DNA from: Winogradskyella luteola
GTDB taxonomy: Bacteria > Bacteroidota > Bacteroidia > Flavobacteriales > Flavobacteriaceae
Reading direction: 5' to 3'
DNA: 64,000 bases
Assembly (NCBI RefSeq): GCF_019203985.1
Contig: NZ_JAGSPD010000003.1
Location: 1-64,000, forward strand
Shown: positions 4,899 to 44,973 of the stretch, piece after piece
Layout: every line of letters begins with the position of its first letter
Position numbering within the stretch: the first letter of the stretch is position 1
Notes under the pieces: generated by a model
Database searches by the model: none
What the model saw: only the letters and a program-made list of their open reading frames with translations
Told to the model about the DNA's origin: nothing
Program-made: the position numbers and the translations under genes

Positions 4899-6530
4899 CT
4901 ATCCATTCATGGAAATTAAAAACTCTTCATTGTTTCTTGTTTGTTTAAACCTGTCATTAATAAATTCCATTGCTTCAACAGGGTTCATATCTGCAAGATA
5001 CTTACGCATTACCCACATTCTTTGAATGGTATTATCGTCCAATAATAAATCGTCACGTCTTGTACTTGATGATGTTAAATCAATAGCAGGGAAAATACGA
5101 CGATTAGAAATCTTACGATCTAATTGTAGCTCCATATTACCTGTACCTTTGAATTCCTCAAAGATAACTTCGTCCATTTTAGAACCCGTTTCGGTAAGTG
5201 CGGTGGCAATGATAGTTAAAGAGCCACCATTTTCGATATTACGAGCAGCACCAAAGAAACGTTTTGGTTTATGCAAAGCATTAGCGTCAACACCACCAGA
5301 AAGAATTTTTCCAGAAGCAGGTTGTACCGTATTGTAGGCTCTTGCCAATCGAGTAATGGAATCTAGTAGAATTACAACATCGTGTCCGCATTCCACTAAG
5401 CGTTTTGCTTTTTCTAAAACAATGTTAGCAATCTTAACATGCTCGTGTGCTTCTTTATCAAAAGTAGACGCTATTACCTCACCACGGACATTTCTTTGCA
5501 TGTCTGTTACTTCTTCAGGACGTTCATCAATTAAAAGAATCATCTGATATACTTCAGGATGATTAGCCGCAATTGCATTTGCAACATCCTTAAGCAGCAT
5601 AGTTTTACCTGTTTTTGGTTGAGATACAATCATACCACGTTGTCCTTTACCAATGGGTGCGAACAAGTCCATAATACGTGTAGAAATTGTGGTTTGCTTT
5701 TCAGCAATATTAAATTTCTCTTTTGGGAATAATGGTGTTAAGTGCTCAAAAGCCACACGGTCTCTAACTACATTGGGATTTTGACCATTGATTTTACTCA
5801 CCTTTATAAGTGGGAAATATTTTTCACCTTCTTTTGGGGGTCTTACATGCCCTAATACTGTATCACCAGTTTTTAAACCGAATAATCTAATTTGAGATTG
5901 TGATACATAAATATCGTCTGGGGATGTTAGATAATTATAATCGGATGATCTTAAGAATCCATAACCATCTTGCATAATATCTAAAACACCTTCACTTTCA
6001 ATAATGGCATCAAATTCAAAATCTGGTTCACGGTAACGGTTTCTGTTATCTTTATTACCATTGTTTTTTGAATTGCTGTTATTGCGATTATTATTATCCT
6101 TAGAACGATTCTGATTTTGCCTTTTATCGTTGTTCTGATTATTATTAGAACGTCGATTATCGTCTTTACGGTTGTCTTGCTTTTTATGACTTTGTTTATC
6201 GTTGCTAGACTGGTCGTTATTAGACTTACGTTCTTGAGGTTTAGGTTCTTCCTTTTTTTCGGAGAACTCTAAAGATTTTTGATCTTTGTCGTCTTGAGTT
6301 TTTTTCTGTACTCTAGCTCTACTTTGTTTAGGCTTGCTTTGTTTTGGTTCAGAACTGCTGTCAGTATCTTTTGTAGCTTTTACTGCATCAGGATTTGCAG
6401 CTTGGTAATCTAAAATTTGGTAAACCAAATCTAGCTTCTTCATTGAGCGGTACTTAGGTACTTTGAGTTGTTTGGCTAGTTCCTGTAATTCTGGAAGCTT
6501 CTTAGCTTTTAACTGTGAAATTTCAAACAT
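4899..6530 (-). CDS. rho: Transcription termination factor Rho
   Basis: A hexameric RNA-dependent ATPase that ends transcription. 543 residues, longer than the roughly 420 of E. coli. An N-terminal SAP-like helical segment (residues 1-45) is followed by a low-complexity stretch rich in Asn, Lys, Asp and Gln (about 50-170), typical of Bacteroidetes Rho. Then come the cold-shock RNA-binding domain ([13 protein letters not shown]) and the ATPase core with Walker [11 protein letters not shown], Walker [16 protein letters not shown] and the C-terminal DDLLLD region. It stands alone between two hairpins. Confidence 0.95.
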
Positions 6531-7217: not shown

Positions 7218-7712
7218 TTATAGTCTTTCAAATTCTATAATTTCTAAATCCTTTATGTGCTTACCATCTATTTTGAATCGGAGCATGGTTCTTTTTTTAT
7301 GAAAGCCATGTTTACCAACTGCACCAGGATTCATGTGAAGAAGATCTAATTTTTTATCAGGAATTACCTTAAGTATATGAGAGTGTCCACAGATAAACAG
7401 ATCAGGAGGATTTGAGTTCAGTTCCTCTCTAATACGATTATTATACTTAGGAGGATATCCGCCTATATGTGTTATCCAAACATCAATACTTTCACATATA
7501 AACCTATTATGAAGCGGAAATTCAGTTCTAGCTTTAGCGTCATCAATATTGCCATATACAGCTTTTAATGGTTTTAGTTTTTTAATTTGATCCGTGACCT
7601 CTAAATCGCCAATATCTCCAGCATGCCATACTTCATCTGCTTGTTTTACATGCTTAAGAATAGCAGCATCAATGTAACTATGTGTATCTGATAATAATAG
7701 TATTTTTTTCAT
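7218..7712 (-). CDS. YfcE/MJ0936-like metallophosphoesterase
   Basis: 164 residues from the ATG at 7712 (MKKILLLSDTHSYID). Calcineurin-like metal-binding motifs occur in order: SDTHS, AGDIGD, GNID (in place of GNxD/GNHD), then ITHIGG and GHSHI. Such enzymes cut phosphodiesters with two metal ions; the cellular substrate is unclear. A longer frame starting at 7754 uses sequence brought in by the prophage and is not the native start. The prophage end lies only 22 bases upstream, so the original promoter has probably been separated from the gene. Confidence 0.88.
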   Translation of the reverse strand: MKKILLLSDTHSYIDAAILKHVKQADEVWHAGDIGDLEVTDQIKKLKPLKAVYGNIDDAKARTEFPLHNRFICESIDVWITHIGGYPPKYNNRIREELNSNPPDLFICGHSHILKVIPDKKLDLLHMNPGAVGKHGFHKKRTMLRFKIDGKHIKDLEIIEFERL

Positions 7713-7729
7713 ACTTGTTTTCCGATTAT

Positions 7730-7734
7730 AATCG
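7730..7734. repeat. Target-site duplication, right copy (AATCG)
   Basis: AATCG directly abuts the prophage terminus TGAAATCG at 7735. The same five bases follow the other terminus at 47183-47187. Five bases is the duplication length made by Mu-type transposition. Joining the flanks with one copy gives the palindrome TTTCCGATTATAATCGGAAA. Confidence 0.75.
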
Positions 7735-7773
7735 TGAAATCGAATTGTACACAAACTTAAATCAAATTGTACA
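7735..7773. other. Prophage right end (attR) with two transposase-type sites
   Basis: The terminus starts with TG. Two copies of a site sharing AATTGTACA lie with their GTACA cores at 7747 and 7769, exactly 22 bases apart, resembling the closely spaced R1 and R2 sites of Mu. The inner copy, CAAATTGTACA, occurs inverted at the left end (47063-47073). Which protein binds is inferred. Confidence 0.6.
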
Positions 7774-7881
7774 TAAAAAACAATTTAAACACCATTTAAA
7801 ACAGTTTTAAATCATCCTTTGGGTTGCTCACAGGTGATAATTAGCTGTCAACACCTCTATTTTCGTCTTTTATTAGCGTCT
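7774..7881. other. Non-coding right-end stretch with a 9-bp-arm palindrome
   Basis: Between the TS-like gene and the end sites. It contains ATTTAAAAC-A-GTTTTAAAT at 7794-7812 and a weaker AGGTG / CACCT inverted pair. No gene and no intrinsic terminator reading toward the host phosphodiesterase is evident. Confidence 0.4.
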
Positions 7882-8517
7882 TCATACATTCAAACTAAAC
7901 TTGGAATCTTTGCCCTTCAGCAAGCGCTTGGTTGATTTTAGGTTGTTTTCATAGATATGCACATTTCCAAGAAATAAGGTAATTGACTTTAGCGGTATGT
8001 CAATTTGGCGCGATATCAAGTATAAATGGTAAATATCCGAAGGCAAACCAAGAGAGGCATCAGAACTACGCTGATAAGCGCTTAAAACAAGCTTTCCACG
8101 GTCAATCTGGAACTGTATCAAGCTCAAGCACGGCTGTTGGTTGGTGTCTATGGTATTGGCACCCAAAAACAGCACGTAATTTTTGCTAGAGCGCTTTTCC
8201 TTATTGATGCGTTTTATAAGTCCAGGTAATTGCTCAAAATACGTCGGATAACTATTCACCAAAATAGGACCACAGTAATCCCACCAGGTTATCCCTATGT
8301 CACGATACGCCTCAGTGTTTCGCTCACCTTGCATAAATAGATCTAGCTCGTCGCGCAATTTGTTCCTGGCAACCGTATGGCCTTCCAATATCTCCAATAG
8401 GTCAATTGGCCGTAAGTGCAGCTCTTTGTTCAATAGGTATCTAATGTTTCCTTTTTTGTTTTCTTGGACCTTACCTTTTTGTAAAATCCGCTTTAGTGTT
8501 TTGTGATATTTGTTCAT
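7882..8517 (-). CDS. Thymidylate synthase-superfamily protein, probable dCMP (hydroxy)methylase
   Basis: 211 residues. The TS fold can be followed: Glu57 in ELDLFMQG (E. coli Glu58), the WWDYCG region, catalytic Cys130 in QQPCLSLIQF, then YQRSSDASLGLP (Gln149, Arg150, Ser151, Asp153) and HIY (His187, Tyr189). At the position of E. coli Asn177, which recognises dUMP, it has Asp161, the substitution found in dCMP hydroxymethylases such as T4 gp42. The double Arg that binds phosphate from the partner subunit is replaced by Lys-Asn, and the C-terminal extension is missing. It is the last phage gene, where Mu has mom. Product could be 5-hydroxymethyl- or 5-methyl-dCMP; a ribonucleotide substrate, as in MilA, is also possible. 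Confidence 0.72.
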   Translation of the reverse strand: MNKYHKTLKRILQKGKVQENKKGNIRYLLNKELHLRPIDLLEILEGHTVARNKLRDELDLFMQGERNTEAYRDIGITWWDYCGPILVNSYPTYFEQLPGLIKRINKEKRSSKNYVLFLGANTIDTNQQPCLSLIQFQIDRGKLVLSAYQRSSDASLGLPSDIYHLYLISRQIDIPLKSITLFLGNVHIYENNLKSTKRLLKGKDSKFSLNV

Positions 8518-8544
8518 TGTTATAAATTTGTTGCTCTGACGTAA

Positions 8545-8605
8545 AAAGGTGCATACACACCATAAGCTAGGATATTACTCCTCGGCTTGGTGTGTATGCA
8601 CCTTT
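8545..8605 (-). terminator. Long hairpin between fibre genes and TS-like gene
   Basis: An 18-bp perfect stem (AAAGGTGCATACACACCA at 8545-8562 against 8588-8605), with five T following on the minus strand, so it can end the tail operon. Further inverted matches outside it (TCTGACG near 8535 and CGTCAGA near 8622; TTTGTTGC and GCAGCAAA) extend the symmetry to about 8527-8645. The structure is much larger than a terminator needs. Confidence 0.65.
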
Positions 8606-8674
8606 GTTGTTAGCCGTTTGCGTCAGAAACTTACGGCAGCAAAGTCGAGGTTTTTATAAACCTCAAGCTATTTT

Positions 8675-9013
8675 TTATGGTGGCGGATTCTGATAAGTGT
8701 TCTTTAAAGCATCAAACTCTGCTTGTTTGGCCGTTGTATCTTCGCCAAGTCTTACCATTAAGTCGAGCTCAATAGATAATCTTCTTAGCTGGCCTCGCTG
8801 TAATTCTGCCAAAGTAGAATCAACAGGATCTGGTCGCTTATCCAAAGTTTCAGTAATAAATGATGCATCTAATCCTACTAAACCTTCAGGCTCTTCAACT
8901 TCAGCTTCAATTACATTATGGTTTTGAGGAAGTAAGGCGTTAGCTATGTCCTCACTATGTACGCCAACAATAATGTTATTACCATTTATTTCTATATATA
9001 CTACTTCTGCCAT
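8675..9013 (-). CDS. Putative tail fibre accessory/assembly protein
   Basis: 112 residues, overlapping the fibre gene by 13 bases at its start. Residues 1-60 are a small beta-rich region. The C-terminal half (LAELQRGQLRRLSIELDLM, then DTTAKQAEFDALKNTY) is helical, charged and ends Pro-rich. Position directly after the fibre gene is where Mu-like phages keep fibre assembly proteins, so the role is inferred from context; I recognise no family. Confidence 0.5.
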   Translation of the reverse strand: MAEVVYIEINGNNIIVGVHSEDIANALLPQNHNVIEAEVEEPEGLVGLDASFITETLDKRPDPVDSTLAELQRGQLRRLSIELDLMVRLGEDTTAKQAEFDALKNTYQNPPP

Positions 9014-9942
9014 ATCGCTGTGTAATTAATTTTAGTGTTTCTGTCATTCTTATTAACTTGAGCTATGACTCTAACTTTATCGCCATCAATTTGATGCTTC
9101 ATCCACATTTCCTCATTATCTTCCAAATAATCACTAAAACCAACAAAATTGAACGACATGCTAACACCTACTAAATGTTCTATTGTAAAACCTATAGGAG
9201 GATAGATAAATCCATAATTCTTAGTCCAATCATTAGAGTTATTGATGTTAGAATTGATTTGATTTTCTAATATGATGGTTCCTTGAGAAACGCGTGTTAT
9301 CAAATAACCAGCTGCCTTTAAAGCTGCAATGGTAACAGCTCTCTCATCATCCACGCCATTAATTGCTTCTTGATTGGTTACAAGCTCAACAACGCCGCGT
9401 CTTTCAGTTGTGGCTTTTCTTGCATTAAGCTTTTTAGGTGTTATAACGTGAGTGTCGTTATCGTTGTCATTAGTCTCATCTTGAGTAGCAATTTCATTTA
9501 GACCTAATATTTCTTCAGTAGCTTGCTCCAATAAGCCATCCAAGGTCTTAACGGTTCTTATGCGATTAAGTGTACCAAAATCAAAAGAAGCAACTACCCC
9601 AGCATCACCAGGATCACCAAACTTGGCTTTTCGATTTTTCCATACCGGCAGTATCTGGTTAAAGTTACCGGTTTGGGAGGTGTCGTATGCCGCTTCGGTT
9701 ACGGTTTCAATTATTACAACCGTTTCGCCAGTCTCACTCGCTTCAAACGGGAGTATCTCATTGTTATAGATTATCCATCCAGCGCTTGTATTGCCATTAT
9801 CATCCACAACACCATCAAATATTACATTGTCACCAATAGCCCTAACTATGGCATTGATCTGATCATGGCTACTTGATTCCGCAAATGCCAAGTATTCATT
9901 TGCACCAGGAAAGCCCTGGCCAGATATTATTAGTTTATCCAT
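9001..9942 (-). CDS. Tail fibre protein
   Basis: 313 residues with low sequence complexity typical of fibres. A central segment (HVITPKKLNARKATTERRGVVEL, shortened here to its sense: a T-P-K-x-L motif followed by A-T-x-x-x-x-G-V-V-E-L) is the repeat unit seen in many phage fibre proteins. The C-terminus is beta-rich and likely binds the host receptor. It overlaps the gp48-like gene by 13 bases upstream, matching baseplate-to-fibre gene order in Mu. Confidence 0.75.
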   Translation of the reverse strand: MDKLIISGQGFPGANEYLAFAESSSHDQINAIVRAIGDNVIFDGVVDDNGNTSAGWIIYNNEILPFEASETGETVVIIETVTEAAYDTSQTGNFNQILPVWKNRKAKFGDPGDAGVVASFDFGTLNRIRTVKTLDGLLEQATEEILGLNEIATQDETNDNDNDTHVITPKKLNARKATTERRGVVELVTNQEAINGVDDERAVTIAALKAAGYLITRVSQGTIILENQINSNINNSNDWTKNYGFIYPPIGFTIEHLVGVSMSFNFVGFSDYLEDNEEMWMKHQIDGDKVRVIAQVNKNDRNTKINYTAIWQK

Positions 9943-12178: not shown

Positions 12179-14983
12179 TCAGTTATTAATTAAAAGTTGT
12201 TTCTTAACAGCCATAGTATTGTTAAATTCTGTATTAATTGAAGTAATATTTACAGTAGAGGTATCTGTAAAAGAACCATCATTAGTGGTTACCGTTATTG
12301 AAACTTGTCCAGCTTCTGAAGCCGTAAATAGTCCTGTTTGGGATATTGTACCAAAAGAAGTATTGGATCTACTCCAGACAACGGTAGTGTCCGTGGCATC
12401 ATTTGGTTCCACAATAGCATTGAATTGATAATTTTGCCCTTCAGTAAGTGTAATAGAATCAGGCAATCCATTAACTCCTGTTACCGGTATATTTTGAACT
12501 ACTTCTGTTATTTTAATATTATCCAAAGTCACTCCGTCTTGGGCAAATATTCTTATATCATCAAAAGAATTACCTGCGGTGATAGTCGTGGAAACTTCTC
12601 CTTCGTCATATATTAAAGCATCCGTAAAAGCATTCTTTAGTCTAATTTGGACCCATCCAGATCCCGTTTTATCAAATTCAACTAAATAAGTACTTCCTTC
12701 GGTAAGGTAACTATCCCCTTGCTGAAACATCGCAGTGCCTCCACTATTAGCTCCAGCATTTAGTTTACCGTTACTTATTGTCCAGTCACCTTGTAAAGTC
12801 CAACCTGTTGAATCTAAAAAACATGGATTTACCACTAGATTATCTTGGGTATCCACAGTACAAGGAATTTCTTTTAATACAACATTATCCAAGACAATAG
12901 TGGCATCATCTACCAATACTCTAAAAACAAATATGCCGCTAGAACCGGTATTAACAAAATTTATAGTATGAACACCCACGGTTGATGGCGGTGATTTATA
13001 ACCACCATCGTAATAAATTCTAAAGCCTGCTCCCTCGTCACTTATAACTTCGTACGTTAATTCATATTCTTTACCAGTTTCCACTACATCGCTATTAGTT
13101 CCATTTGTAGCAAATGTTCTACCATTGGCTTCACTGGATAATTTAGTTAAATGTAACTGCCCATCAATTATTTCAGCAGCACCTTCAATACTCCACCATC
13201 CCAAAGGATATGAATTGCTATCTATAGTACCGTCAGTTGAAAAACATGGGTTTATAAAAATGTTATCAACAGTATCAACACTACAGCCAGCTTCAACAGG
13301 TAAATCATCAGCAAGATACCCTAAGAAATCTTCAAAATCAGAATAACCATTAGAGTCTGTATCATCTGTTCCATCTTTTGATAAATTACCAAATTCTGAG
13401 TTTTCCCAAGAGTCTGCCATACCGTCATTATCGGAATCAGTATAAGGCGTACCATCGTTGTATTCGGGAAAAGTATTATCGGTTACGTTATCCGTACCTT
13501 CCCTATTGGCAACATCAGACATAGCCCTGTCATCTTCCGAATCCCTGTATTTGTAATTACCCACTACAGGCAATAAATTGGTCTCGATTTCGCTATTATC
13601 CCACAAAGGAATACCGCTCTTTATTATAGGCGTATCAAATGGAACAGAGGACCTCATATAAGAGGGTACATTGTTTGTATTGTTGGAAGAGTTTTTTCCA
13701 AACTGTACCATTCTATATTCAGGGTCACTCTCTTGTGCTGCACTCATCATTGAATCATCAAAATTACCTAAAGAGTAGATTCTTTCTCTCTCACTACTGG
13801 AACCGTTATCGGTGCCATCGCCTATCCTAAAAAACCTAATGGAGTTGGTTATTATTTGACTTGTTCCTGAATCGACTTTAGCGGTTCTTACATTGTTCAC
13901 AAAATTTACTTCATAAAAATTTGTTGTAGAAACATTGCCCGCACTTGCCCCGTTACCGCAGTCGTGCCAAAAATTATTAACAAGCTCAAACACTCCGTCA
14001 AAAGTGTAATTGTGCCCACTTTCAGAAGATAGGGAGGGGTTTCTAGTTGCCGAGTTTATAAAAGCGTTTCTCCATAACGACAATCTTGGGGGGCTTCCCG
14101 TAATGAGCATACTCTTATTGTTACCTCCATAGGAATTGGTAAACAAGCAGTACTGTACCGTAACACTGTCCGTAACCCTGTTATTATAATCGTAGTTATA
14201 ATTTGCTATATCCAAATTACCATCACTGCTCCACGAAAGTGAACAATGATCTACTATTATGTTTTTACCCTTGTTAACCCAAATATTATCTCCAGCATTG
14301 TAACCAGAACTACTTTCACTTCTTCTAAAGGTCAAAAATCTTATGATTACATCATCCGCATCTATCTCAAATGTAAATTTAGACGTAGCGTTTGAATTGA
14401 TAAGCATGATACCATCACCTGGAGCGGTCTGTCCAGCAATCGTAATATTATTGTTTTTTATCTCCAAAGGACTCTTTATGTCCAGAATACCTCCAACCTT
14501 AAAAATGACGGTTCTAGGATTTGCGTTATCTATAGCCTTTCTTAAACTTCCGTCATAAAAAGGAGAAGACGTATCCGGTACAAAATATGCGTAATCGTTA
14601 TCATCGTTACCAAAATTGTCAAATATTACCTGATTTATCTGATCTTGGCAAATCTCAATATTTAGCCTAGAGTCTCCAGATACATCGCTATCATACGGAC
14701 TGTACGAAGTATTTACATCCAAACCTACAGAGGTTTTCCATACGTCCGGTAAATTATCGCCGGCTATATTTGCAAAAGTCTTTACCCGGGAACCGCTTGG
14801 CTCACTATCATCACGCCATTGTGTTATTATATGGTGATCTTTAAGATGTGTGACTGATATTATGGTACCTCCACGTCCTCCCTGACTATATTTACCATAT
14901 CCCTCAGCACCTTGAAATGCAGGGGTCTGAGCTTGCGATACAAAGCAAAAAGAAACGATTAATATTAATAGCAAATTTTTCAT
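12179..14983 (-). CDS. Exported pectate-lyase-like protein with CBM-like and Ig-like domains
   Basis: 934 residues. Sec signal peptide (residues 1-18, cut after SQA). The mature start QTPAFQGAEGYGKYSQGGRGG and later TIAGQTAPGDGI and IIVDHCSLSWSSDGNLD are signatures of polysaccharide lyase family 1-type parallel beta-helices. Residues about 515-560 hold Asp-rich calcium-type repeats (DSDNDGMADSWEN). Two similar beta-sandwich modules follow (each starting near VDTxDN and NPCF), resembling carbohydrate-binding modules, then an Ig-like domain of the BIG2 kind. No type IX secretion tail is seen. It lies in the tail operon and may be a virion depolymerase or an exported enzyme expressed for the lysogen. 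Confidence 0.75.
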   Translation of the reverse strand: MKNLLLILIVSFCFVSQAQTPAFQGAEGYGKYSQGGRGGTIISVTHLKDHHIITQWRDDSEPSGSRVKTFANIAGDNLPDVWKTSVGLDVNTSYSPYDSDVSGDSRLNIEICQDQINQVIFDNFGNDDNDYAYFVPDTSSPFYDGSLRKAIDNANPRTVIFKVGGILDIKSPLEIKNNNITIAGQTAPGDGIMLINSNATSKFTFEIDADDVIIRFLTFRRSESSSGYNAGDNIWVNKGKNIIVDHCSLSWSSDGNLDIANYNYDYNNRVTDSVTVQYCLFTNSYGGNNKSMLITGSPPRLSLWRNAFINSATRNPSLSSESGHNYTFDGVFELVNNFWHDCGNGASAGNVSTTNFYEVNFVNNVRTAKVDSGTSQIITNSIRFFRIGDGTDNGSSSERERIYSLGNFDDSMMSAAQESDPEYRMVQFGKNSSNNTNNVPSYMRSSVPFDTPIIKSGIPLWDNSEIETNLLPVVGNYKYRDSEDDRAMSDVANREGTDNVTDNTFPEYNDGTPYTDSDNDGMADSWENSEFGNLSKDGTDDTDSNGYSDFEDFLGYLADDLPVEAGCSVDTVDNIFINPCFSTDGTIDSNSYPLGWWSIEGAAEIIDGQLHLTKLSSEANGRTFATNGTNSDVVETGKEYELTYEVISDEGAGFRIYYDGGYKSPPSTVGVHTINFVNTGSSGIFVFRVLVDDATIVLDNVVLKEIPCTVDTQDNLVVNPCFLDSTGWTLQGDWTISNGKLNAGANSGGTAMFQQGDSYLTEGSTYLVEFDKTGSGWVQIRLKNAFTDALIYDEGEVSTTITAGNSFDDIRIFAQDGVTLDNIKITEVVQNIPVTGVNGLPDSITLTEGQNYQFNAIVEPNDATDTTVVWSRSNTSFGTISQTGLFTASEAGQVSITVTTNDGSFTDTSTVNITSINTEFNNTMAVKKQLLINN

Positions 14984-35743: not shown

Positions 35744-36514
35744 CTATTCTTCCTCGTCTATGTACTGATATTTTCCATTAACTAAATGGTAATATTTTTC
35801 AGCGTCTGGATTCAATTCAAAAGCAATCTCATAACACTCATTACTTAGATTATCCGGTTCTCTAAAATCATGATTTCCATTTTCAAAAATTCCAAGCCCA
35901 CAATTAGATCCAGTATCTTCATCAGCGTACTTATAGTCAAACTTTACGTCTGGAAATTTTTTGCTCAACAATAAAATTAAATTGGGAACTCCGTTCCATG
36001 CTGTTTGAAAGTAAATTGTATCTTCTGTATTTCGTTCATCATTCAAACCATAAGCATTCCATTTAGTGCCCCAGTTTTTTTTAGACCATTCAAACCAACT
36101 TGTATCACCATGATTTCTGACATTTCTCAAGCATTGAACGAAAATCTCAAATTCATCATCAGATAAGTCTTTTACATTTCCTTCACGTTTTGCTGTAAGA
36201 TGATCCATAGCGGTTGATGCAGCCATTCTAGTGGAAAGAGCCGAGTAATTTCTTTCTTTAAAAAGTTCTGAAGGCGACTTATCTAGTGGCTTGAATAAGC
36301 AATTAAAATCTAATTGACCTGTACATATTTCAACCCACATCTTTATACCAGAATGTGCATGAACATCTAATCCCTTTGGCATTGGTATTATCTTGTTAAA
36401 ATCAATTTCTATTTCATTATTGTCGTCATCCTTAGCTTTTAATGAATCAAGTACTTTCTTTATTTCACTTTTTGAGCCGATTACTCTTAATCTATTTTGT
36501 ATATGATTTGGCAT
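35744..36514 (-). CDS. Api92/YubB-like ferredoxin-fold protein (DUF1281)
   Basis: 256 residues. MPNHIQNRLRVIGSKSEIKK, FNKIIPMP, ENWGTKWNAYG-like (KKNWGTKWNAYGLNDERN) and FQTAWNGVPNLILLLSKKFPDV are characteristic of the Api92/YubB family found on plasmids and phages. The role is unknown. It lies mid early operon. Confidence 0.72.
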   Translation of the reverse strand: MPNHIQNRLRVIGSKSEIKKVLDSLKAKDDDNNEIEIDFNKIIPMPKGLDVHAHSGIKMWVEICTGQLDFNCLFKPLDKSPSELFKERNYSALSTRMAASTAMDHLTAKREGNVKDLSDDEFEIFVQCLRNVRNHGDTSWFEWSKKNWGTKWNAYGLNDERNTEDTIYFQTAWNGVPNLILLLSKKFPDVKFDYKYADEDTGSNCGLGIFENGNHDFREPDNLSNECYEIAFELNPDAEKYYHLVNGKYQYIDEEE

Positions 36515-41743: not shown

Positions 41744-42586
41744 TTAGGCGGTTTGTTTTAGTTTGTAAATGTCTATGTCCCTGCGTACACGCCTCAAATC
41801 ATCCTCGCAATTATTAAAGATGTATTGTATCTCATCGTCATCATCCACACCATTGGCGTTGCATATCAGCTTTACATCTTTGAATGTGATATGGTCTAGC
41901 TCTATGAACTTTCTACCGATACGGCTGTAAAATTCCTCGTAGCCAATTTTTTGGCGGTGCACACCTTTAAGGATGCGTTTCTCTAAGGCTTTGACACCTG
42001 AGATCATAAATCCGCAATGGCCATTTAGGTCATTGTAGAAATCCATAAAAAGGTCTAATTGTGGGTCCTTAAGTTTGTCGGCCTGGTCCAATATCACTAA
42101 TGGATTTTCAAGCGACATAAGGTGTTTTAAAAACCGAGCCAGTAGTTCTTCAGTCTTTCCATAGCTATCAAGACCCGAAGCCACTAAAAGTGCTTTTAAA
42201 TAAGACTTTTTGGTCCATGAGGTTTTGCACTGCAGATAGATGGTGCTATTGATATTGCTTTTCCAATACGCTTTGAAGGTTTCACTTTTACTTTTACCAG
42301 CCGTATCGGATATCGCTATGCTAATGCCTTGTTTTTTTGACGTGTTGAGGAAGTGGGTTATGAGTTTAAAGTTCTCTATTGCAACCGTTTTCCATTCAAA
42401 ATCCAAGAACAAACGCTTTTGGATAATGCGCCACATTTCATTACTGATCAGGTTCCAGTTGTTATTGATAATCTGACTCACAATGGCAGTAGAGACTTCG
42501 AGAAGTTTAGCCATATGACTCTGGCTTGTTTTTTGACATAGAATCGAGAGCTCGTTGGCTATGGCGATTTTGTTTTCGTTTTGCAT
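41744..42586 (-). CDS. MuB-like target-capture ATPase
   Basis: 280 residues. N-terminal HTH (SQSHMAKLLEVSTAIVSQII) followed by an AAA+ core with a degenerate Walker A SDTAGKSKSETF and Walker B PLVILDQADKL, then C-terminal helices. Layout and place after MuA match MuB, which binds target DNA, gives target immunity and stimulates MuA. Confidence 0.82.
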   Translation of the reverse strand: MQNENKIAIANELSILCQKTSQSHMAKLLEVSTAIVSQIINNNWNLISNEMWRIIQKRLFLDFEWKTVAIENFKLITHFLNTSKKQGISIAISDTAGKSKSETFKAYWKSNINSTIYLQCKTSWTKKSYLKALLVASGLDSYGKTEELLARFLKHLMSLENPLVILDQADKLKDPQLDLFMDFYNDLNGHCGFMISGVKALEKRILKGVHRQKIGYEEFYSRIGRKFIELDHITFKDVKLICNANGVDDDDEIQYIFNNCEDDLRRVRRDIDIYKLKQTA

Positions 42587-42942: not shown

Positions 42943-44973
42943 TTACATTCTGTTATAAAAGGACTCGGCCTCGGCTTCACTGCGCTGTTGTTTTGGTAGT
43001 TTGCCACCAAACTTTATTTTGAGTTCCTGATCCTTTATCAATTGTTCTGGAGTAATACCAGTTTCTTTTTGTATCTGTTGAATTTTGCGCTTGGCTTCAG
43101 CTTCCTCGGTTTTACGGACGTCATAATCTTTTTTCCATTGGGCTTTGTCACCTTCTTGCTGAAGTACCGGAAGCTGCTGTTGTTTTCTTACCTGTTGGGC
43201 ATCGGCGACGTACTGCTTATCTCCGTTAGGTAGCTTTAGATAAAGGCTGACGTAATTGTCTAGGTTGTCTGGATCGTACTTTACAAAGAACTTTTTATTG
43301 ACCCAGCGCTCTCTAAACCTTAGGTCTATATCACCATTGACATTGTAAACCTCGAAGTGGTGTTTTTGCTTTGCAATTTCAACACGTATGCCATCGGCTC
43401 TGTAGGTAATGGTATCTGAAGTGTACACCCAGAACATATCGATCATATCGAGGTAGCTCACATCCTCCTTCATTAATTGCTCCTCTTGGTAAACCTCGTT
43501 TCTGCTTTTGTTGTATTTAGCATGCTTGGCTTCGTTCCATTCCTGGACACAGAGTTCCCAAGCCTTAATTAGTTCTTGCTTGGTTGGTAGTTTGTCAAGA
43601 TTTGACAAAATGAAGTCCATATTAGGCTTATTGTTATCGGTACGGACTTTAATGGATTGCTTATCACTGAACCACCATGAGTTAATAACCTGCTGTTGTA
43701 GGCGGTTGAAAATACCTTCAGCTGGTGAGCTATGCTCATAAGCCGCATGTTGGTAATGAACACCTCCCTTTTTAGCTACCATTTTACCATATAGCTCCTG
43801 CATTCTAGTTGAGGTATGACCAGACTGACCATCGTAAGTGAATAAATATGGCCTTGTTTGAGCGTTGTTAAACGCCATTTTAATAGCATTAAAATGGTCG
43901 ATATGGTTTTCAGTTTCGCTGAAGGACCAGCCGATGATCTTCTCTGAGTAAACATCTATGACCGGATCTATCTTAAACTTAGCAGCTGCACCGAGTTGAT
44001 TGTCGTAGTAGTGCATCCAATCGATTTTGGATCCATCTATAGCCCAATATGCATTTGGGAACCATTGGTCTTTGTCCCTTACGAGCTTGTGACCGTATTT
44101 GTTTCTGTAAGTTTCAATGCCATCTCTGGATATCATCCACAGCTTCTCCTGTTCTGGTTCGTATAGCCATTTGTAGATAGCGGATTCTGATAGTTCTGGC
44201 CAGTCGCGCTTTTGGGCTTCCTTATTGTAGAGCATGTGAAGTACCGGTACCACAATTTTATTAGGCATTGAGTATTGAGCTATGAGCCACTTGGCAATAT
44301 CGCCTTTGATTTTTTGAGCTGCTTTGTTGTTTGCGTTCTTATGTACCAGGAACTCGTAACCCTCTTCTTTAAAACCATTTGCCTTACGCTCTAGCGCACG
44401 CACGTTAGTAGGTAATTTGTGAGGATATTTTTTAGTTTTGGTATTTGGGTAGCATTCAGACTTAAGGTCTTTAATGATGTTAGTCAATTTTTTCTTAAGG
44501 TCGCCTTTCTTTGATTTTTTTCGACGCTGTTTGATCTTATGATCGTAGTTAATCAGTATCTCGTTGTAAAGGTTTAGTATTTCGGCTTCGCAGATGTATT
44601 GGGCTTGTTTTTTGTTTGGGATGCCTCGGCCGTCTTCGTAGGTATAGGTTTTGTAAAAATCAATTGCTTTATAGTCTGTGGTGATCTGATTTGTAAAGGT
44701 TTCGCGATCGTCTTTTAGATAAGGGTTACCAAAGGATCTAATAATGACGTTTTTTAGATCTTCGGGTATGCTAGCGAATTCTATTAGACCGGATCTACCA
44801 CGTCCTTTTGTCCGGATTCGGTTAAGCTTTCCTCTTTGTACCCATTTTTGAAAGTTGCTATAACTTAAAATTGAGAGGTGATTGTAGAACACATCCTGAT
44901 CAACACAAATCGTATTTAGATAGTTTTCGTACACAGGACTATTGTTCCACATTGATTGATTCGTAATACTCAA
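42943..44973 (-). CDS. MuA-like DDE transposase
   Basis: 676 residues, same size class as MuA (663). The N-terminal part (about 1-100) has winged-helix DNA-binding sequence (FQKWVQRGKLNRIRTKGRGR). The RNase H-like core has Asp313 in AIDGSKIDW, Asp381 in FTYDGQSGH and Glu419 in SSPAEGIFN, a credible DDE triad. A beta-barrel region and a basic, charged C-terminal tail for MuB contact follow. Start overlaps the Cro-like gene by 35 bases. Confidence 0.92.
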   Translation of the reverse strand: MSITNQSMWNNSPVYENYLNTICVDQDVFYNHLSILSYSNFQKWVQRGKLNRIRTKGRGRSGLIEFASIPEDLKNVIIRSFGNPYLKDDRETFTNQITTDYKAIDFYKTYTYEDGRGIPNKKQAQYICEAEILNLYNEILINYDHKIKQRRKKSKKGDLKKKLTNIIKDLKSECYPNTKTKKYPHKLPTNVRALERKANGFKEEGYEFLVHKNANNKAAQKIKGDIAKWLIAQYSMPNKIVVPVLHMLYNKEAQKRDWPELSESAIYKWLYEPEQEKLWMISRDGIETYRNKYGHKLVRDKDQWFPNAYWAIDGSKIDWMHYYDNQLGAAAKFKIDPVIDVYSEKIIGWSFSETENHIDHFNAIKMAFNNAQTRPYLFTYDGQSGHTSTRMQELYGKMVAKKGGVHYQHAAYEHSSPAEGIFNRLQQQVINSWWFSDKQSIKVRTDNNKPNMDFILSNLDKLPTKQELIKAWELCVQEWNEAKHAKYNKSRNEVYQEEQLMKEDVSYLDMIDMFWVYTSDTITYRADGIRVEIAKQKHHFEVYNVNGDIDLRFRERWVNKKFFVKYDPDNLDNYVSLYLKLPNGDKQYVADAQQVRKQQQLPVLQQEGDKAQWKKDYDVRKTEEAEAKRKIQQIQKETGITPEQLIKDQELKIKFGGKLPKQQRSEAEAESFYNRM

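Follow-up and report, generated by a model that had tools for sequence, protein, structure and literature searches.

A thymidylate synthase-like protein of Bacteroidota transposable phages with a probable cytosine-type active site and a stem-loop element in common with phage DNA methyltransferase genes

The closest described systems to the gene considered here are thymidylate synthase (TS, ThyA), the hydroxymethylase gp42 of phage T4, the enzyme MilA, the Xanthomonas phage Xp12 and, for its place in the phage, the mom gene of Mu. In the MetaGPA work, an Asp at position 177 is associated with cytosine, and modified phage DNA shows its two strongest links with positions 177 and 147; earlier work described there has an Asn-to-Asp change at position 177 shifting TS towards dCMP, giving 5-methyl-dCMP (PMC8670742). 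For hydroxymethylation, a signature has been proposed from the T4 enzyme, consisting of an acidic residue three positions before the catalytic Cys and an S/T-x-Y motif; the D145N exchange alone abolishes the T4 reaction, and the C-terminal tail is missing from this enzyme (PMC6400193). MilA is described as preferring CMP, with Lys and Ala in place of Arg126 and Ser167 of TS (PMC5175136). AXL1, a relative of Xp12, is described with a DHFR, a dCMP deaminase, a TS and a DNA polymerase of its own (PMC9206674). In Mu, the published account is that an RNA structure at the start of mom holds back translation until Com opens it (PMC6483171).

The window, a stretch of 64,000 nucleotides from Winogradskyella luteola, contains a TS-like gene of the dCMP type at 7882..8517 on the minus strand. 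Both the fold and the top sequence matches of its 211-residue product are those of TS, and database records label it thymidylate synthase; PADLOC gives no match for it. The initial annotation had placed this gene last in a Mu-like phage, where Mu has mom. A MuA-like transposase (42943..44973, minus strand; phrog_310, E 2.6e-52) and a MuB-like DNA transposition protein (41744..42586, minus strand; phrog_296, E 4.8e-36) in the window agree with a Mu-like phage, and the terminal, mom-like position of the gene is supported as well. No target-site duplication was seen at the prophage ends. The G+C content is 0.40 in the TS-like gene, 0.38 in the prophage and 0.33 in the flanking host DNA. The window also encodes a protein with an Api92-like ferredoxin-like domain (35744-36514; PF18406, E 7e-14) and, in the tail region, a 934-residue ORF (12179-14983) that by eye resembles a parallel beta-helix protein of the lyase-like kind.

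The TS-like proteins form a large, highly conserved family in transposable phages of Bacteroidota, including the gut hankyphage. A search of 5.8 billion proteins returned at least 8000 candidates, all with E≤0.001, and the 120 matches listed are 71-94% identical to the window protein. Relatives number 206 on viral contigs and 214 on genome contigs, from each of which 80 were taken; the 80 genome contigs are Bacteroidota by title, L121 and L123 excepted. Among the best 40 of 730 records in a phage collection, 21 are 68.9-69.8% identical to the window protein, 19 of them named Bacteroides phages including hankyphage p00, and the next match falls to 27.9%. Conservation was evaluated on 274 rows (282 minus eight removed for length), which come from best-hit lists and so represent near relatives; in this set 81 of the 211 positions are conserved at 99% or more. 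Between the window and locus L084, pN is 0.051 and pS 0.692. In one 342-residue family member (P0001) the TS-like domain looks partly duplicated in tandem. The literature search, with wider hits judged by title and the start of the abstract, found no link between hankyphage and thymidylate synthase and nothing joining thymidylate synthase, Mu-like, Bacteroides and phage; 'thymidyl' is absent from the hankyphage literature text-searched for the term.

The gene is often found together with a MuA-like transposase. Among 39 long related phage records, picked from 81 virus records that may be fragments, 31 have a MuA match, with identities from 70% down to 20%, whereas the TS in the loci of these MuA-bearing records is 69-82% identical to that of the window, so that the transposase varies much more than the TS-like gene that it accompanies. 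A class-wide survey of 395 genomes found TS in two and MuA in seven, with both TS genomes among the MuA seven; in five of the seven MuA carriers TS was not found at the threshold of this search. TS and MuA lie 34 kb apart on one contig in an independent genome (G199).

The predicted model has the same fold, the same catalytic equivalents and apparently the same C-terminal tail as ThyA of E. coli and Elizabethkingia, although the protein has 211 residues and ThyA about 264. The equivalents of E. coli TS Cys146, Glu58, Trp80, Arg166, Ser167, Asp169, His207 and Tyr209 are all kept. Glu57, Gln127, Cys130, Leu131, Arg150, Ser151, Asp153, Asp161, Asn185, His187, Tyr189, Leu209 and Asn210 are invariant in all 274 rows. 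Both the dCMP-type Asp and the retention of the catalytic residues (Glu57, Cys130, Arg150, Ser151, His187 and Tyr189), as read in the initial annotation, are thereby confirmed across the family. Asp161 lies in the same column of the MAFFT alignment as Asn177, the Asn of dUMP-type TS, which is absent from the family, and it matches the Asp at position 179 of the T4 type. It is also kept in seven further copies from other genomes, the most distant of which (L174, 64% identity) has Val at the Leu131 position. The other substitutions relative to E. coli TS are His147 to Leu131, Leu143 to Gln127 and Tyr94 to Leu86; the paired arginines Arg126-Arg127 are gone as well. Three TS and the T4 enzyme agree in 33 columns, of which four family members retain 14, with Tyr94 and the arginine pair among the 19 lost. 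A constant stretch, S111-K112-N113, occupies the arginine region, with a register that differs by one or two residues between HMMER and MAFFT. Because Tyr94 has become Leu86 and the arginine pair is lost, the enzyme must carry out catalysis and bind phosphate in another way than either known type.

From these residues, the substrate is very probably a cytosine nucleotide. Like MilA as described (PMC5175136), the family has an equivalent of its Asp186 and a Lys, K112, near the phosphate site, close to the place of the Lys that stands for Arg126, though the register is uncertain. The Ala176 of that description, which replaces Ser167 of TS, is not found in the family: Ser151 is present in 274 of 274 rows, which favours deoxyribose. 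MilA also differs in belonging to antibiotic synthesis rather than to a phage.

The identity of the group added to the base is more evenly balanced. In common with T4 gp42, the protein is encoded by a phage gene and has the cytosine-recognising Asp and the catalytic set. Unlike gp42, it has no acidic residue before the Cys: Gln127 stands three residues before it in all 274 rows. It also has no S-x-Y motif; both MAFFT and HMMER place P84-x-L86 where S/T-x-Y would align. A tail appears to be present, and no kinase partner was found in the related phage records. In several structural alignments residues 1..211 of the predicted model align to residues 1..264 of TS, so that the ends coincide; 251 of the 274 rows have Val at position 211, and the pLDDT is 82 for residues 201-210 and 51 for residue 211. 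A profile match to gp42 is weak (hhalign probability 2.4, E 0.02). T4-type hydroxymethylase as a label for the family was rejected because the published signature is missing. The initial annotation had compared the protein with dCMP hydroxymethylases; the cytosine-type specificity contained in that comparison is supported, given Asp161 and Leu131 at the His147 position, but the hydroxymethyl product does not follow from it, since the signature is absent and the tail appears TS-like. With the signature absent, a TS-like tail apparently kept and Tyr94 and His147 replaced, 5-methyl-dCMP is at least as likely a product; judged from the residues, the methyl and hydroxymethyl products come out nearly even, methyl being slightly favoured. 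A methyl product would have 5-methylcytosine as a possible end result in common with Xp12, which is set beside this phage by description.

That the enzyme is nevertheless a true hydroxymethylase, with the T4 product 5-hydroxymethyl-dCMP or the MilA product 5-hydroxymethyl-CMP, is a special case of the reading favoured below and is possible rather than probable. Asp161 is compatible with it, a constant polar residue (Gln127) stands three positions ahead of the Cys where TS has Leu143, and K112 near the phosphate-binding arginines recalls Lys133 in the description of MilA (PMC5175136). These points have to be set against the missing acid and S/T-x-Y motif, when as little as D145N is reported to kill the T4 reaction (PMC6400193), against the apparently retained tail that T4 is without, and against Ser151, which is of the deoxyribose type and unlike the Ala of MilA.

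Ahead of the gene is a stem-loop element (8531..8632, minus strand) built from an outer stem, an 18-bp middle stem and an apical hairpin. The arms of the outer stem, TCTGACG at 8621..8627 and CGTCAGA at 8535..8541, are paired in the centroid fold and in the match to R1, a covariance model made from 34 sequences with the window excluded; those of the middle stem (8588..8605 and 8545..8562, 18 nt each, all minus strand) form a perfect inverted repeat. The 123 nt from 8518 to 8640 fold at -47.6 kcal/mol (z -7.19), and none of 200 shuffles is as low. With filters off, R1 ranks the right place best in the window, with a statistically weak score (9.5 bits, E 0.72); in the window's own genome R1 gave no significant match. 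Three pairs of the middle stem are changed on both sides relative to L084. The window stem-loop is a diverged copy of the element found in relatives. No Rfam family fits the stem-loop, and an Rfam identity was rejected for the window, 11 loci and L005: window positions 7700-9100 give nothing at E≤1, the sole match above the gathering score in the 11 loci lies away from the element, in L131, and the 19 matches in L005 are all far under the gathering score, the best being microRNA models. The L131 match, at 1655-1744 of this TS-bearing locus, is to the RT-17 RNA (40.9 against a gathering score of 40.4 bits).

The relatives have a like architecture of outer stem, middle stem and apical hairpin, the last often GGAGGAC...GTCTTC. 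Among 137 distinct leaders, taken unselected from upstream of the first gene, whether TS or methyltransferase, 56 have the strict apical motif, 103 fold better than all of their 12 shuffles and 110 fold better on the sense strand than on the complement. The G-U pair present in 34 of 34 apical hairpins and the constancy of the apical sequence in the same set are imposed by selection, as picking the motif fixes both bases. In 18 sequences chosen for similar geometry, 93.3% of cells pair, and 12 of the 26 pairs, every one of these in the outer or the middle stem, differ on both sides; none of 500 shuffles reaches the pairing and two-sided-change values, although related sequences may beat shuffles even without structure. 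Sliding the partners lowers pairing in this set to 41-59%. A strand about 11-22 nt upstream complements the apical strand over at least 8 nt in 60 of 84 elements (mean 8.1 nt for own pairs, 6.7 for swapped and 5.2 for shuffled), a pattern suggestive of a switch between alternative pairings. In the window this feature is missing, with complementarity over 5 nt.

The strand on which the element acts can be read in two ways: it may be an mRNA leader or an opposite-strand small RNA gene. The leader reading comes from the better folding of the sense strand, and the small RNA reading from a promoter-like box. The consensus of the -7 box in Bacteroidota promoters is TAnnTTTG, and TAAATTTG, at 8523..8530 on the plus strand, fits it and points through the stem-loop, in the direction leading away from TS. 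On the sense strand the corresponding CAAAnnTA is found near the end of 72 of 76 elements (shuffled mean 9.8), mostly within 5 nt, and 81 of the 137 unselected leaders have it in the 70 nt preceding the first gene (shuffled mean 6.0). An A run, equivalent to a U run on the opposite strand, marks the outer edge of 55 of the 76 elements. Given the box and the U run, the element may be a small RNA gene transcribed away from TS. A sense-strand box was found just upstream in none of the 76 elements and further upstream in three of the 137 leaders.

The genes fronted by the element connect it with DNA modification. R1 was run on 90 of 169 sources, almost all of them TS loci by construction, and gave 53 matches, counting both strands. 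Those on the plus strand, 36 in number, precede 21 TS genes, 14 D12 methyltransferases and one ORF that by eye is ParB/methyltransferase-like; one of these 36 loci (L055) was in R1, and for some the same phage recurs in a different collection. The hankyphage L081 was missed by R1. Among 397 genomes of the host's family, R1 matches occur in 11, at 12 distinct places: five before a TS-like gene, six before a DNA methyltransferase and one before a decayed pair. By Pfam, the six methyltransferases are four D12, one C-5 cytosine (followed by a D12-like ORF) and one N6_N4; these loci (L175-L178, L180 and L181) are without a TS-like gene. At L179 (oriented 5823-6438) the stem-loop is followed by a short methyltransferase-like start that runs into a TS start, and the TS end is separate. 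Five of the seven TS-bearing genomes were matched by R1, the other two being the window's genome and G687. The 12 genomic places mean that the element marks phage DNA-modification operons, the TS-like gene among them: the TS-like enzyme has its putative control element in common with phage DNA-modification genes. It is quite unlikely that the stem-loop merely terminates the late operon and says nothing on function. In many loci a GC-rich stem with a T-rich stretch behind it has the look of a terminator, but the two-sided changes in the outer and middle stems, the upstream strand complementary to the apical strand and the confinement of the element to modification operons in the whole-genome search all speak against this.

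DNA methyltransferases are also frequent neighbours. Among 98 loci flanked on each side by 1 kb or more, in which some phages are present from both collections, an adjacent D12-type DNA methyltransferase occurs in 61 (37 downstream and 24 upstream), in some cases overlapping TS by a few bases; none was found adjacent in the other 37, and no D12 (PF02086) partner was found in the window. Three example neighbours belong to the D12 N6-adenine class by Pfam, and two of these are type II methyltransferases by PADLOC (E 2.6e-61 and 6.2e-47). With these neighbours and the stem-loop common to methyltransferase operons, the earlier comparison with mom is strengthened. As in Mu (PMC6483171), the gene stands at the end of a transposable phage, with a predicted RNA structure before a putative modification gene; the fold is strong in the window and covaries in relatives, with the R1 match in the window being weak. 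The likeness to mom is one of leader structure in general, and the Com domain (PF10122) was found in none of the 39 related records. Mom itself belongs to another enzyme family and uses other chemistry than the TS-like enzyme.

Taken together, the reading that we favour, with a probability of about two in three, is that the protein, a member of the TS superfamily, alkylates cytosine nucleotides at C5 in a folate-dependent reaction and belongs to an anti-restriction module of Bacteroidota transposable phages. We infer that, in the lytic cycle, the enzyme would convert dCMP and methylene-tetrahydrofolate to 5-methyl- (or 5-hydroxymethyl-) dCMP, which host kinases would bring to the triphosphate. 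The host replisome would then place the modified base at part of the cytosines during replicative transposition, and restriction enzymes requiring plain C would be blocked. The conserved stem-loop may time the production of the modification enzymes, like the RNA structure for Mu mom. Incorporation would depend on host kinases, as no phage kinase was found: neither a cytidylate kinase nor a T4-type dNMP kinase is found in any of the 39 related records, and no nucleotide kinase is present among 24 other proteins scanned, which are part of those of the window phage. Several points count against this favoured reading: the empty kinase searches, the retention of 14 of the 33 shared columns, the lack of a significant R1 match in the window, its genome and hankyphage L081, and the 37 of 98 loci that, like the window, have no adjacent methyltransferase. 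In addition, a nucleotide-level route requires the enzyme before or during replication, and the position of the TS-like gene, ending the late genes, suggests late expression.

The absence of kinases from the 39 records would suit a modified cytosine nucleotide that acts free, outside DNA, for example by blunting a nucleotide-based host defence, and, with the phosphate-binding arginine pair gone, more than one phosphate form may be the substrate. The shared stem-loop and the methyltransferase neighbours indicate DNA modification, however, and a free role is unlikely. An ordinary auxiliary thymidylate synthase supplying dTMP for phage replication has in its favour the fold, the best matches and the record names, all of which are TS, yet it is very improbable. 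Asp161 is constant, each of the eight NCBIfam TS equivalog models listed falls short of its cut-off (at best 57.3 bits against 327), and the stem-loop is in common with DNA methyltransferases. The host encodes its own ThyA, so the phage gene is not needed for dTMP supply. On the grounds of Asp161, the equivalog scores and the host ThyA, ordinary dTMP supply was rejected. The shared stem-loop lends the anti-restriction reading independent support. A broader and more tentative proposal, which we put forward with some doubt, is that the three-layer stem-loop with its apex-pairing upstream strand is a new class of cis-acting element governing a DNA-modification regulon, in which a third type of enzyme, a cytosine-nucleotide C5 alkylase that is neither TS nor T4-type, salts the DNA of a kinase-less phage with modified cytosine.

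The 'thymidylate synthase' of these widespread phages, including human-gut hankyphages, is thus probably a cytosine-modifying enzyme. Hankyphage virions are described as non-infective in the laboratory (PMC12135933). The stem-loop, common to several DNA methyltransferase classes, offers a means of finding modification genes in phages and a switch that can be tested. If the favoured reading is true, a Mu-like phage would attain the goal of mom through other chemistry, and DNA modification would belong to the life of a common gut prophage.
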